Of a stretch of 64,000 nt of DNA, positions 25,505 to 29,442 are shown in pieces. The translations under genes and the position numbers were made by a program. Source of the stretch: an uncultured Lachnospiraceae bacterium (GTDB taxonomy: Bacteria; Bacillota; Clostridia; Lachnospirales; Lachnospiraceae); the NCBI GenBank assembly GCA_951801955.1, contig CATOOV010000001.1:1-64000 (forward strand). The letters are read 5' to 3'. Each line of letters opens with the position of its first letter. Positions within the stretch are counted from its first letter, which is position 1. The notes under the pieces were generated by a model that was not told where the DNA came from, searched no databases, and worked only from the letters and a program-made list of their open reading frames with translations.

Positions 25505-25589
25505 AAGGAAAAAAGCCATAAAGTTTCGGCACTTTCGTGCGCCTTAAAAGGAAAATTTATAAACGGCAGGTGAAGATCAGGAGGAAAAG

Positions 25590-25655
25590 AGTGAAAGAAT
25601 TTGTTCATTCTTTTTGCGAACCGCCTGTTTGTGCTGAAATATGCACAGAATGGAG
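25590..25655 (+). ncRNA. Conserved two-hairpin leader, copy 1
   Basis: The ~65 bases upstream of the CotF-like gene closely match 28519-28587. Hairpin 1 is AAAGAAT/ATTCTTT; hairpin 2 is TGTGC/GCACA with a loop TGAAATAT; AATGGAGG follows. The two copies differ by an indel that breaks any shared reading frame, so it is conserved as nucleic acid, probably a 5' UTR element. Confidence 0.5.
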
Positions 25656-25661
25656 GAGAAC

Positions 25662-25937
25662 ATGCAGCAGTCATTTTATTCAGAAAAAGAAGTATTTGCA
25701 GATGCACTTACTGCAGAAAAAACAGCGACAACCCTTTACAACACATTTTCCAATGAATGTGTCCATGATAATGTGAGAAATGCCATTTTGGACTGTCTGG
25801 AAAAGGAACACAATATCCAGAATGAAGTATTTAATATGATGCATCAGAGAGGTTACTATCCCACACCTTCTGCTGAGACCCAGAAGGTAGAAGAGGCAAA
25901 ACAGAAATTTGGCCAGTGTATGGAGAACTTTCAGTAA
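25662..25937 (+). CDS. CotF-like spore coat protein
   Basis: A 91-residue protein starting MQQSFYSEKEVFADALTAEK; I choose ATG 25662, four bases after AGGAG in ATGGAGGAGAAC, over the in-frame ATG seven codons upstream. It shows the CotF-domain layout: two helices with a conserved Glu/His pattern (LEKEHNIQNEVFNMMHQRGYYP). CotF proteins belong to the spore coat and share a ferritin-like helical fold. Preceded by the structured leader shared with the gene at 28594. Confidence 0.8.
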   Translation: MQQSFYSEKEVFADALTAEKTATTLYNTFSNECVHDNVRNAILDCLEKEHNIQNEVFNMMHQRGYYPTPSAETQKVEEAKQKFGQCMENFQ

Positions 25938-25988
25938 AGTTCTGGCATTATAACTTAGAATTGGCTAGTGTGTGCCTTGCCACTGTAA

Positions 25989-26048
25989 AAAGAAAGGAAG
26001 AATCCTCCAACTGTATTGCCGACGGTTGGGGGATTTGCTTTCTTTGTC
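25989..26048 (+). terminator. Terminator after the CotF-like gene
   Basis: AAAGAAAG...AATCCTCCAAC pairs with GTTGGGGGATT..CTTTCTTT in one long interrupted stem. Between here and 26320 I see no gene; 26050-26095 (CCTATAGGAGAAAACGAAAA then TGCGCACG) loosely resembles repeat B. Confidence 0.6.
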
Positions 26049-26325
26049 ATCCTATAGGAGAAAACGAAAATGCGCACGTTTGTCCTCATAGGCTTGCGAT
26101 TTGCTACATATTGTCAGCAAACGGCGCCCCGCATCCCCGGCAAAGGCTCCCAGGAGGGAGTTCTCTATCTAAACCTATTGTTTCCAGTAACTTCCAAATC
26201 GTGGAAAATAAATTTTTCCATATCTTATGAGACCATTTCCAAGTTTGAAACATCTAATTTATGTAAAAACAAATAAGCTGGCCAGCAGAAAGGAAAGGGT
26301 GAAAGAAAAAAGAAGGAAGGATAAA

Positions 26326-26405
26326 GTGCAAACATACATCTTTCCCCCTTTATGTTTGCGCCTCAAATGAAAATACAAGCATTTTCGCTTGAGGCTTGGT
26401 GCAAA
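26326..26405 (+). promoter_or_regulatory. Overlapping hairpins directly before the sigma factor start
   Basis: GTGCAAACATA (26326-26336) pairs with TATGTTTGCGC (26351-26361). GCCTCAAATGAAAAT (26360-26374) pairs with ATTTTCGCTTGAGGC (26381-26395). TTTGCGCC can alternatively join with GGTGCAAA (26398-26405) next to the ATG. The stems overlap and would mask the weak ribosome site, suggesting translational control of the sigma gene. Confidence 0.45.
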
Positions 26406-26407
26406 TT

Positions 26408-26881
26408 ATGAAGAAAGAACAGTTAGGAAAACTTATTATAGCATCGGAAGATACCATGTATCATGTAGCAAAAACACTGCTTTATAATGATGCAGATTGC
26501 GCAGACGCCATACAGGAAGCAATCGTAAAAGCATTTACAAATTTGCACAATCTGCGAAAAGATTCCTATGCAAAAACCTGGCTTATCAGAATACTGATCA
26601 ATGAATGCTATGCGATTATGCGCAGGGAAAAACGCATTGTGTCATTGGAAGGCTATCAGCGTGAGGACACAGGCAAGGAGACGGAAGATTACTCTGATTT
26701 GTACGAGGCGATCAGACAGTTGCCGCAGGAGATCAGAATCTGTGTCACACTTTATTATTTGGAAGGCTATAGCGTAAAAGAGACGGCAAAACTTCTTGAA
26801 ATTACAGAAAGTGCAGTGAAAAACCGTCTGGCGCGGGCAAGAGCAAAGATGCGCAGTGAATTACAGGAAGCAGTGACATAG
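26408..26881 (+). CDS. ECF-type RNA polymerase sigma factor
   Basis: 157 residues from ATG 26408; the track's TTG start four codons earlier lies against a hairpin. Region 2 (YHVAKTLLYNDADCADAIQEAIVKAF, then TWLIRILINECY) and region 4 (LPQEIRICVTLYYLEGYSVK followed by ETAKLLEITESAVKNRLARAR) are clear, with no extra domains. It directs core polymerase to a specific regulon, probably autoregulated. The next gene is a single-pass membrane protein with a cytoplasmic N-terminus, the expected anti-sigma partner. Confidence 0.92.
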   Translation: MKKEQLGKLIIASEDTMYHVAKTLLYNDADCADAIQEAIVKAFTNLHNLRKDSYAKTWLIRILINECYAIMRREKRIVSLEGYQREDTGKETEDYSDLYEAIRQLPQEIRICVTLYYLEGYSVKETAKLLEITESAVKNRLARARAKMRSELQEAVT

Positions 26882-26916
26882 GAAACGGAAAGAGATAATG
26901 AAATGGAGGCTGGAAT

Positions 26917-28356
26917 ATGAGATTAGAGGATATAAAATATGATTTTCCAAAAATGCCGGAGGATATGAGGATAATGATTCAAAAAGAAGTTGAGAAACAG
27001 GTTAAGACAGAGCGACCAAAGTTTGGAAAAGGAAAATTTGCTATGGGCAGAACAGCCGTTGCATCGGTAGCTGCAGTGATGCTTTTGGGAACTACCGTGT
27101 TTGCAAGCGTAGGATTTTATCAAATGCAGCAGAAGAAAATAGGGGCGCACGGCGTCAATATCAATATTTCAAGAACCCAGGCGCTGAACGAGATTAAGGA
27201 AAAACAGACGCTTAAGATTCCTGATGTAAAGATGGAAGTGGGTTATCTGCCAGAAGGCATGGTAAAGACACAGCGGGGGAAATACAGTTTTGAGAATGCA
27301 TTGAACCAGGGGGGTGTTTCCATCGCTTTTTACCGCATGGATGGCGGAGACGACCAGTTTGAGATTCAACATGGGGATGTCCTTACAAGTGAAGATTTTA
27401 CGGCAAATGGTTTACAGGGCGTCTATCTGGAATATCCCGATCTGTATGGGGAAGATATTACCTTTAACCAACGGATTTATCTGGCGTTTACAGATGTCCA
27501 TTATGTTATGGAGATGTTCGTTGCATCTGATGTGACAAAAGAGGAAGCGCTTAAAATTGCTGAAAATATTAAATTGATTCCAACAGAAGATAAAGAGGAT
27601 GACGAATTTGTCACGGCATGGAATTGGAGCGAGTATCAAAAAAGCCTGAAAGAAAGCGCGCAGCAGGAAGGGACAGGCGAAACAATAAAGACCATTGCCA
27701 CAAAGGAAGAGATGAAGAATACCCATGCCATCGGTGAAGAATTTGCCACAGGGACAAAAGGGCTTAAGGTGAAAGTTGCCGATGTGCAGGTCAGCGATGA
27801 CATCAGTCTGTTAGACGCCGCTTTGGTGGACGATGACCTTAAGAAAGAGACAGATGGGCAAGGAAAGCTTCATCCGGCAACCATCCAATATATCAAAGAA
27901 GGGAATACAGACGCATTGAGCGAGGTGGTAAAATCCAAAGAAGTTCCCCAGAAGTTCTTATATGCGACGGTGGAATATAGCAATACTGGCAAAGAAGAAC
28001 TGTCAGACGTGCTGTTTATGGGAGCATTGGCGCGTATCAGGGAAGAGGAAGATAAGATGAGCATGATGTCTGGCTGGACCTATGAAGAACCAGCAGATGG
28101 GGAGGAATGGGACAGCGCAGTCAACCAAGGATTATCCAGCAATTTTGATATGCAGTATTACGACGTCCATGGCGGAGAGCGGGGAAATAACTATATTCCA
28201 AGCATCCAGCCAGGTGAGACAGTGACGGTGCATATGGGATGGATTGTAACACAAGAGGAGCTTTCGAACTTGTTCTTAAACCTTGATACATTCGGCGGAG
28301 CCTATGAATTCACGGATTCTTCCCTTGAGATGGGATATGTGGATATTCGGAAATAA
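26917..28356 (+). CDS. Membrane-anchored anti-sigma factor-like protein
   Basis: 479 residues, one transmembrane helix at about 47-68 (AVASVAAVMLLGTTVFASV). The short cytoplasmic N-terminus (MRLEDIKYDFPKMPED) would bind the sigma factor; the large extracellular part contains a DUF4367-like stretch (YLPEGMVKTQRGKYSF) and a second beta-rich domain near the C-terminus (TVHMGWIVTQEELSNLFL). It follows the sigma gene by 35 bases. The sensing signal cannot be read from sequence. GGAGGCTGGAAT precedes the ATG. Confidence 0.8.
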   Translation: MRLEDIKYDFPKMPEDMRIMIQKEVEKQVKTERPKFGKGKFAMGRTAVASVAAVMLLGTTVFASVGFYQMQQKKIGAHGVNINISRTQALNEIKEKQTLKIPDVKMEVGYLPEGMVKTQRGKYSFENALNQGGVSIAFYRMDGGDDQFEIQHGDVLTSEDFTANGLQGVYLEYPDLYGEDITFNQRIYLAFTDVHYVMEMFVASDVTKEEALKIAENIKLIPTEDKEDDEFVTAWNWSEYQKSLKESAQQEGTGETIKTIATKEEMKNTHAIGEEFATGTKGLKVKVADVQVSDDISLLDAALVDDDLKKETDGQGKLHPATIQYIKEGNTDALSEVVKSKEVPQKFLYATVEYSNTGKEELSDVLFMGALARIREEEDKMSMMSGWTYEEPADGEEWDSAVNQGLSSNFDMQYYDVHGGERGNNYIPSIQPGETVTVHMGWIVTQEELSNLFLNLDTFGGAYEFTDSSLEMGYVDIRK

Positions 28357-28450
28357 AAAGGAAATAAAATCGTGCGATATAACGGATAAAAACAGGATCA
28401 CTTAAGGAAAAGCCATTTTTACAAAAAATCGCCGTTTTTTTCAATATATA

Positions 28451-28479
28451 TTGTATTTTAATTTTATTTTGCTTATAAT
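28451..28479 (+). promoter_or_regulatory. Sigma-A promoter before the secreted protein operon
   Basis: TTGTAT (28451-28456), 17-base spacer, TATAAT (28474-28479). Transcription would begin near 28486, giving a ~105-base leader that contains the conserved two-hairpin element. Confidence 0.7.
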
Positions 28480-28514
28480 AATTTTGTAGCTGAGGTGTAA
28501 GTAATTTTTAAGAG

Positions 28515-28590
28515 GTATGAAGAGTGGAAGAATTCGTTCCTTCTTTCATGAACTACCTGTTTGTGCTGAAAAACGCACAGAATGGAGGTA
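28515..28590 (+). ncRNA. Conserved two-hairpin leader, copy 2
   Basis: Matches 25590-25655: GAAGAATTCGTTCCTTCTTT, then CCTGTTTGTGCTGAAAAACG with CACAGAATGGAGG. Hairpin 2 (TGTGC/GCACA) is kept with a different loop sequence; hairpin 1 is GAAGAA/TTCTTT. The ribosome site GGAGG follows immediately. Confidence 0.5.
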
Positions 28591-28593
28591 ATA

Positions 28594-29442
28594 ATGAACA
28601 AGAAAAAGGTAACAAAAATTTTGACAACATGTCTGATGTCCTTATTTGTAATAGGGATGGCGCACATCACAGTACATGCAGAAACTGTTTACGAAACAGA
28701 ACCAAATGACAGCAGGGAAACGGCGGAATTGATTGAGGCAAATAAGGAAACGCCAAGTGGGACCATTGATGGCAGCCGTACAGGGCAATTTGTTGTAAAG
28801 GGTTATAGCAGTACAGATGATGCAGACTGGTTTAAAGTGTATTTAGATGCAGGAACCAATTATTTTACATGTAATGACAATCCTTTTAATTACACAATAG
28901 AGGATGAAAGTGGAAATATAATCCTCAAGGACAGATATGAAAAAGGCGGGTTTGGCCCTACCGCTTTTGAGTTTTATACACCATCGTCAGGATATTATTA
29001 TATACAGATCAGAGGAATTATCTCAACGCAAAAGAGTTATATATTTTTAGTTGGCAGTCCAAATTATGCTGTCACAAAATGTGAAATCCCTTGCAGGGAA
29101 GGAAAAATAAATATGACTTCAAGCGGCGGAACCCAAACAGCACATTTTGATGCGGATGTTTTGTCCAATTTGCCAGAAGATGCAATTGCATTTTCGGTTG
29201 CTTTGGATGGGCTAAGATCATCGTCTGTGGGTACGGCACGTTTGACAAATGAAAATAGTGGAACTAGTTTTTCCTTAAATTATTATACTTGGAGTAAAGA
29301 TAAATTGCTTTCCATGAATCTGCCAGTAAAGTCGACTTGGACAGCAAAATTAGGGTTTAAAACAGTTACATCGTTTACACCCGTATTAAGGGTGAATTTT
29401 GTATATCCAATTTACAACACTATGGTGGAAGAGGTATATTAA
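28594..29442 (+). CDS. Secreted protein with PPC-like domain
   Basis: 282 residues from ATG 28594, four bases after GGAGGTAATA-type site; signal peptide about residues 1-30 (ILTTCLMSLFVIGMAHITVHA). The mature N-terminus has the bacterial pre-peptidase C-terminal (PPC) pattern: ETEPNDSRETAELI, ...DDADWFKVYLDAGTNYF, ...FYTPSSGYYYIQIRG. No catalytic domain follows. PPC domains occur on secreted enzymes and adhesins, so a cell-surface or extracellular binding role is inferred. Its stop overlaps the next start (TAATG). Confidence 0.75.
   Translation: MNKKKVTKILTTCLMSLFVIGMAHITVHAETVYETEPNDSRETAELIEANKETPSGTIDGSRTGQFVVKGYSSTDDADWFKVYLDAGTNYFTCNDNPFNYTIEDESGNIILKDRYEKGGFGPTAFEFYTPSSGYYYIQIRGIISTQKSYIFLVGSPNYAVTKCEIPCREGKINMTSSGGTQTAHFDADVLSNLPEDAIAFSVALDGLRSSSVGTARLTNENSGTSFSLNYYTWSKDKLLSMNLPVKSTWTAKLGFKTVTSFTPVLRVNFVYPIYNTMVEEVY

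Follow-up and report, generated by a model that had tools for sequence, protein, structure and literature searches.

The leader shared by two unrelated genes in a 64,000-nucleotide stretch of DNA from an uncultured Lachnospiraceae bacterium (hereafter, the window) is probably a member of a family of interspersed non-coding elements that form two RNA hairpins, are mobile on an evolutionary time scale and enter genes between the Shine-Dalgarno (SD) sequence and the start codon. Each new copy would come to lie between the native SD and the start codon, pushing the native SD upstream, where it could decay, and would bring along a replacement SD (AGAAUGGAGG) at a distance of 5 nt from the AUG. We propose, as the most economical account, that the insertions are tolerated because the replacement SD keeps the host gene translated. 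This interpretation builds on direct observations of the copy number and position of the element, of empty sites, displaced SDs and a fixed 5-nt spacing, and of covariation between paired bases. The position is unusual among small interspersed elements, and our search of the open-access literature turned up no description of an interspersed element that occupies this one position alone.

The two window copies (Table 1) are identical in 58 of 68 aligned columns and differ, in addition, by one 1-nt gap, the frame-shifting indel that had been pointed out in a sequence-only reading of this DNA. As that reading also held, both fold into two hairpins, with z-scores against dinucleotide shuffles of -4.4 (copy 1) and -2.8 (copy 2). 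Both end in GCACAGAATGGAGG followed by a 5-nt spacer and an ATG; in copy 1, GGAGG lies 5 nt ahead of this ATG. Neither copy is matched by any Rfam 15 family, even at E<=5. The naming of the first downstream gene as CotF-like is borne out by its Coat_F match; the name ‘PPC-domain’ for the second finds no confirmation, with no Pfam match at E<=0.001. A promoter had been proposed before copy 2: there is a perfect -10 box, TATAAT, at 28474-28479, but a promoter scan detected no sigma-70 site there. In six relatives we found no orthologue of the gene behind copy 2, and the SD-like sequence just upstream of this copy is a presumed displaced native SD. Between the two copies (26411-28353), a gene for an ECF sigma factor is followed by one with a DUF4367 domain, and the two may form a sigma/anti-sigma pair.

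Table 1. Features of the window around the two element copies
Feature	Position	Strand	Evidence
Displaced native SD of the CotF-like gene, ATCAGGAGG	25576..25584	+	upstream of copy 1
Hairpin 1 of copy 1	25585..25614	+	MFE fold; pairs covary genus- and family-wide
Element copy 1: hairpin 1, linker, hairpin 2, GAATGGAGG	25588..25656	+	own-genome CM match, 87.6 bits
Hairpin 2 of copy 1 with replacement SD (CCGCCTGTTTGTGC ... GCACAGAATGGAGG)	25621..25656	+	MFE fold
CotF-like gene, downstream of copy 1	25662..25937	+	Pfam Coat_F PF07875, E 3.2e-22
AAGAGGT, SD-like, presumed displaced native SD, just upstream of copy 2	28510..28520	+	sequence
Element copy 2: two hairpins and GAATGGAGG	28521..28588	+	own-genome CM match, 91.5 bits
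Secreted-protein-like gene (earlier ‘PPC-domain’ gene), downstream of copy 2	28594..29442	+	ORF

When the same genome (3.62 Mb in 164 contigs, 89% complete) was searched with the DNA of copy 2, 42 matches were obtained at E<=10. A covariance model (CM) built from 24 copies recovered 41 matches at E<=1, of which 38 terminate at a start codon. In the remaining three (loci L298, L011 and L028) the SD is mutated and no long ORF starts behind the copy, so that they look like relics. The 13-mer CACAGAATGGAGG occurs 27 times in this genome and about 110 times genus-wide, compared with 0 and 1 occurrences, respectively, of the reversed control. The claim of a homologous leader before two unrelated genes thus holds far beyond chance, with about 40 recurrences in the genome, and the family is larger than first noted. 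A full copy, about 65-95 nt in length, consists of hairpin 1, an ACCUG linker, hairpin 2 and GAAUGGAGG, followed by 5 nt and AUG. In an extended form, an additional hairpin of the type GUACCC-AUA-GGGCAC is located between the linker and hairpin 2. Tandem copies, the second directly behind the SD of the first, are found at murG (L005), hprA (L030) and trmD (L036). No long, autonomous form and no copies reduced to the left half were seen.

The distribution of the family is patchy. In a sample of 61 genomes, matches were detected in 20 of 28 sister species, with copy numbers across the genus of 38, 14, 12, 12, 8, 7 and so on down to 0, and in none of 32 genomes outside the genus. A wider Lachnospiraceae sample contained matches in 10 of 397 genomes, eight of these outside the genus with 1-5 copies each. 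The eight extra-genus copies that we inspected all end in GGAGG-N5(or 6)-ATG before unrelated genes, which include adk (L309), infB (L311) and a response regulator gene (L308), and several have a GGAGG just 5' of hairpin 1. Among named records, exact core matches come from Lachnospiraceae isolates and metagenome-assembled genomes (MAGs), including Eubacterium sp. 14-2, a ‘Hespellia’ MAG and Diplocloster modestus; most of these are mouse-gut strains. Viral contigs contain no exact match of the element.

The interspersed-insertion nature of the leader, which the sequence-only reading missed and which is the main point, emerges from a comparison of orthologous starts in sister species for about 14 genes. 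At the CotF-like gene, five sister species lack the element and have (ATC)AGGAGG 5-6 nt before the same ATGCAGCAG start: AAATCAGGAGGTAAATC-ATGCAGCAG in G003 and G013, ATCAGGAGGTAAAAT-ATG in G021, ATCAGGAGGACATT-ATG in G010 and ACAGGAGGACATG-ATG in G001. The filled site in the window reads AGATCAGGAGGAAA-[element]-AGAAC-ATGCAGCAG, with ATCAGGAGG kept and the element between it and the ATG. At secD, the empty AAGAGAGGATAAAATC-ATG of G021 corresponds to the filled AAGAGAGGATAAA-[element]-AAATC-ATG, and the site is empty in all relatives examined but G004; at the OTC gene, AGGAGAGGAAAATATG (G012) corresponds to AGGAGAGGAAA-[element]-AAAATATG. The sites at hisG, ribH, fabK, rsmD, glgP, hprA and the L002 gene are likewise empty in the relatives examined. 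The native SD is retained just 5' of the element at the CotF-like gene, secD and OTC. Genus-wide, 35 of 48 full copies are preceded within 16 nt by an SD-like core, compared with 25 of 144 control windows taken further upstream (10, 7 and 8 of 48; P 4e-12). From the empty orthologous sites and the native SD kept upstream, we infer that the element is an insertion, with a replacement SD, between the native SD and the start codon; the copies would have spread as a unit that inserts, and not through repeated evolution in place.

Like classical MITEs, the element occurs in multiple copies and is absent from orthologous sites of relatives. Its ends, AGAGTGAAAG and GAATGGAGG, are not inverted repeats of each other, and the site comparisons revealed no clear target-site duplication, although a duplication of 2-3 nt of A could escape them. 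Part of the copy set is old, given that orthologous genes share copies: secD is filled in G000, G004 and G027, hsdM in G000 and G004, and trpB in G003, G013, G021 and, truncated, in G000, and an MNREKI gene has a two-hairpin leader common to four species (L034, L050, L052, L056).

The spacing on the start-codon side is nearly invariant. Of 37 copies in the genome, 33 have 5 nt between GGAGG and ATG, as against 15 of 103 native genes with GGAGG (P 3e-16); among the latter, sampled from 463 kb of the same genome, the spacing ranges from 4 to 12 nt with a mode of 7. The SD of the element, AGAAUGGAGG, matches in 9 of 10 positions the complement of the usual 16S 3' end, and this replacement SD is presumably the one in use. 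On the other side, the displaced native SD lies a variable 2 to 7 nt from the element, with a GGAGG-like target present. A constant right flank together with a variable distance to the native SD would not be predicted for a simple SD-targeting transposon and counts against the insertion account. Also weighing against it are the failure to find an autonomous parent, a transposase, a clear target duplication or any long or left-half-only form, the older copies shared at orthologous genes, the box kept across species without hairpins, and a predicted SD accessibility like that of native genes. The insertion point appears to be set from the start-codon side, be it by the mechanism or by selection on the new SD. 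We put forward tentatively a more specific version, in which the translation initiation region itself would guide the insertion of a mobile, RNA-structured element at a fixed distance from the start codon, possibly at the RNA level, and the element would replace the ribosome-binding site of the host so that essential genes tolerate it.

We found no autonomous parent or transposase for the element. One candidate agent is a transposase of the IS200/IS605 type (Y1, HUH), which would move the element as a REPIN-like miniature unit. Such a unit would have subterminal hairpins, cause no target duplication and insert 3' of a short target (GGAGG) that recurs at its own 3' end. This would fit the two hairpins close to the ends of the element, its strand-specific placement behind a GGAGG-like target, the return of this motif at its 3' end and tandem insertion behind an earlier copy. 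Nevertheless, this reading is improbable. Two genomes with 13 (G021) and 6 (G024) exact boxes, both 99% complete, have no match to PF01797, whereas G028 has seven such matches and no box; the two Y1 loci of the bacterium's own genome show no element-like ends by inspection; and the distance from target to element is not constant. We therefore reject Y1 transposases as the mobiliser, since their genes do not track the copy numbers. Of the two Y1 loci in the own genome (L040, L041), one holds a full transposase of the IS605 type beside a TnpB-like frame and the other a fragment; the ends of both are unlike those of the element. Slightly less probable still is a SINE-like retrotransposed RNA, the 3' end of which would anneal at or near an SD and be copied by a reverse transcriptase, producing copies truncated at the 5' end and intact at the 3' end. 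Such copies exist, some directly behind a native SD (L157, L172, L176, L231), and no 5'-only copies were found; yet most truncated copies lack an adjacent native SD, and selection on the SD would account just as well for the intact 3' ends.

That the conserved feature is an RNA rather than a protein, as originally claimed, is supported by frameshifting indels, stops and compensatory changes in the stems. Within the bacterium's own genome, pair changes do not exceed those in shuffles. Across the genus (69 copies), however, double changes affect 13 of 21 pairs, with 52 double-changed cells compared with 16.7 in shuffles, and none of 500 shuffles reaches the observed value of any covariation measure; for structures slid along the alignment, 33-59% of cells are paired, against 90% for the actual structure. 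A family set of 31 matches, picked to include distant genera, yields 30 double-changed cells against 7.2 in shuffles. Both alignments were fitted to the model, and the shuffles leave relatedness in. In hairpin 1, the sequence is almost wholly replaced while the stem is kept, as in GGGUGAAA/UUUCACCC (L306) and GUGAAGG/CUUUCAC (L309). An alignment-free shuffle test of hairpin 1 alone in 15 distant copies gave a mean z of -1.7, the signal being strong in L306, L309, L052 and L050 and absent in L308, L247 and L312. Uncompensated breakage of both stems did not occur. Because compensatory changes keep the hairpins paired across genus and family, the RNA structure appears to be under selection, which might act through the setting of host-gene translation, through aid to the spread of the element, or both; in the proposed mechanism, what maintains the hairpins would be the spread of the element itself, an effect on how the host gene is translated or how stable its message is, or both.

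These changes bear equally on the notion of a translated leader peptide (GTG AAA GAA TTT GTT ..., reading VKEFVNSFTNYLFVLKNAQNGG), which is hardly credible. Many copies do have an open frame, which the 18-nt extended form preserves, and the native SD lies at a plausible distance from the GTG. Against this stand frameshifting indels, stops (L002, L010), loss of the GTG (L005), family homologues of other lengths, one of them without the GTG, and changes that follow base pairs; on these grounds, we discard a coding leader.

The host genes are unrelated, including secD, hisG, murG, trpB, trmD and the CotF-like gene among others, and many copies are probably inside operons, as 21 of 37 have an upstream ORF on the same strand no more than 150 nt away. 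The suggestion of a regulon of sporulation or surface genes is not upheld: the downstream genes are a random-looking mix with many housekeeping genes. Some regulatory role of the element remains conceivable. It is unlikely, in our estimate, that the leader is a translational regulon tag, bound at its hairpins and SD box by a trans-acting protein or small RNA that controls all tagged genes, and spread by selection instead of mobility. The compensatory changes, the two-hairpin leader retained at the MNREKI gene in four species and the fixed 5-nt spacing speak for such a tag; the tagged genes, however, share no evident pathway and mostly differ between species, and besides the start-site copies no exact antisense of the box was seen in the 89%-complete genome. 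Predicted accessibility of the SD does not help this reading either: the mean unpaired probability is 0.48 for the copies and 0.51 for native genes (p 0.5), and 0.45 for full-length copies (p 0.24). With the predicted accessibility not different from that of native genes, simple SD sequestration is unsupported and was rejected on these folding predictions. CsrA, the obvious GGA-binding candidate, is missing from two genomes with 5 and 2 copies; with no PF02599 match in these carriers (G245, G391), it was dismissed as the partner. The bacterium's own genome encodes three CsrA homologues. In G021, the gene behind one copy (L045, C12:105585-105659) is fliW-like (MQLNTRLFGEIE), and csrA follows at a distance of about 0.5 kb.

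At many sites, CACAGAATGGAGG stands alone, without hairpins, yet is kept across species. It then forms an extended SD at orthologous genes with diverged upstream sequences (L168/L201/L207/L235, which also favor a regulon tag, and L221/L241/L249). This conservation indicates a constraint beyond GGAGG that is not fully explained, suggesting, at the sequence level, a function beyond mobility. Further orthologous sets with the hairpin-less box and diverged upstream sequences are L190/L199 and L192/L206. An MKEKL (pheS-like) gene has the full element in one species and only the 13-nt box in two others (L069 in G013, L222 in G003, L234 in G021). In two species (L208, L246), the 3' end of the upstream gene runs into the box, which there codes for a C-terminal (S/T)QNGG.

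If the mobile-element interpretation is correct, these insertions would represent a harmless way to take over translation initiation of many genes at once, with placement between SD and start codon even at the typically essential genes secD, murG and trmD. The paired empty and filled natural alleles offer a means to measure the effect of a leader structure and a second SD on expression, and the findings raise the question of how a start codon can set an insertion.

The nearest systems in the literature examined are REPINs/REP elements and the TAACTGA repeats, neither of which is described there as SD-carrying or as limited to sites between an SD and its start codon. REPINs and REP elements with their RAYT transposases are, like the present element, short, palindromic, multi-copy, non-autonomous, hairpin-forming interspersed DNA. 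REP doublets, however, are reported to be randomly distributed in extragenic space (PMC3116915, PMC8266576, PMC3733652), whereas our element occupies the SD-start interval in one orientation and carries an SD, and, unlike REPINs, it is not tracked by Y1/RAYT genes. The TAACTGA repeats of marine Beggiatoaceae lie just upstream of start codons of functionally unrelated genes, and a translational role has been suggested and a mobile origin considered (PMC4679880); these are repeated heptamers of little SD character, usually without an SD, whereas the present element is a unit of two hairpins that has an SD at a fixed spacing. MITEs are 70-300 bp long and transcribed, and their RNA folds can affect neighbours; they and BOX/RUP, NEMIS, ERIC and EFAR are, similarly, short, multi-copy and located beside genes (PMC3733652; PMC3049150). 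The element described here differs from these small repeats in that no terminal inverted repeats or target duplication are seen and in its precise placement at the ribosome-binding site, where it provides a replacement SD. Finally, Rickettsia palindromic elements insert in frame inside coding sequences, with the gene apparently staying functional (PMC3733652); they, too, are palindromic insertions in gene space, but the element analyzed here is non-coding and resides in the leader.
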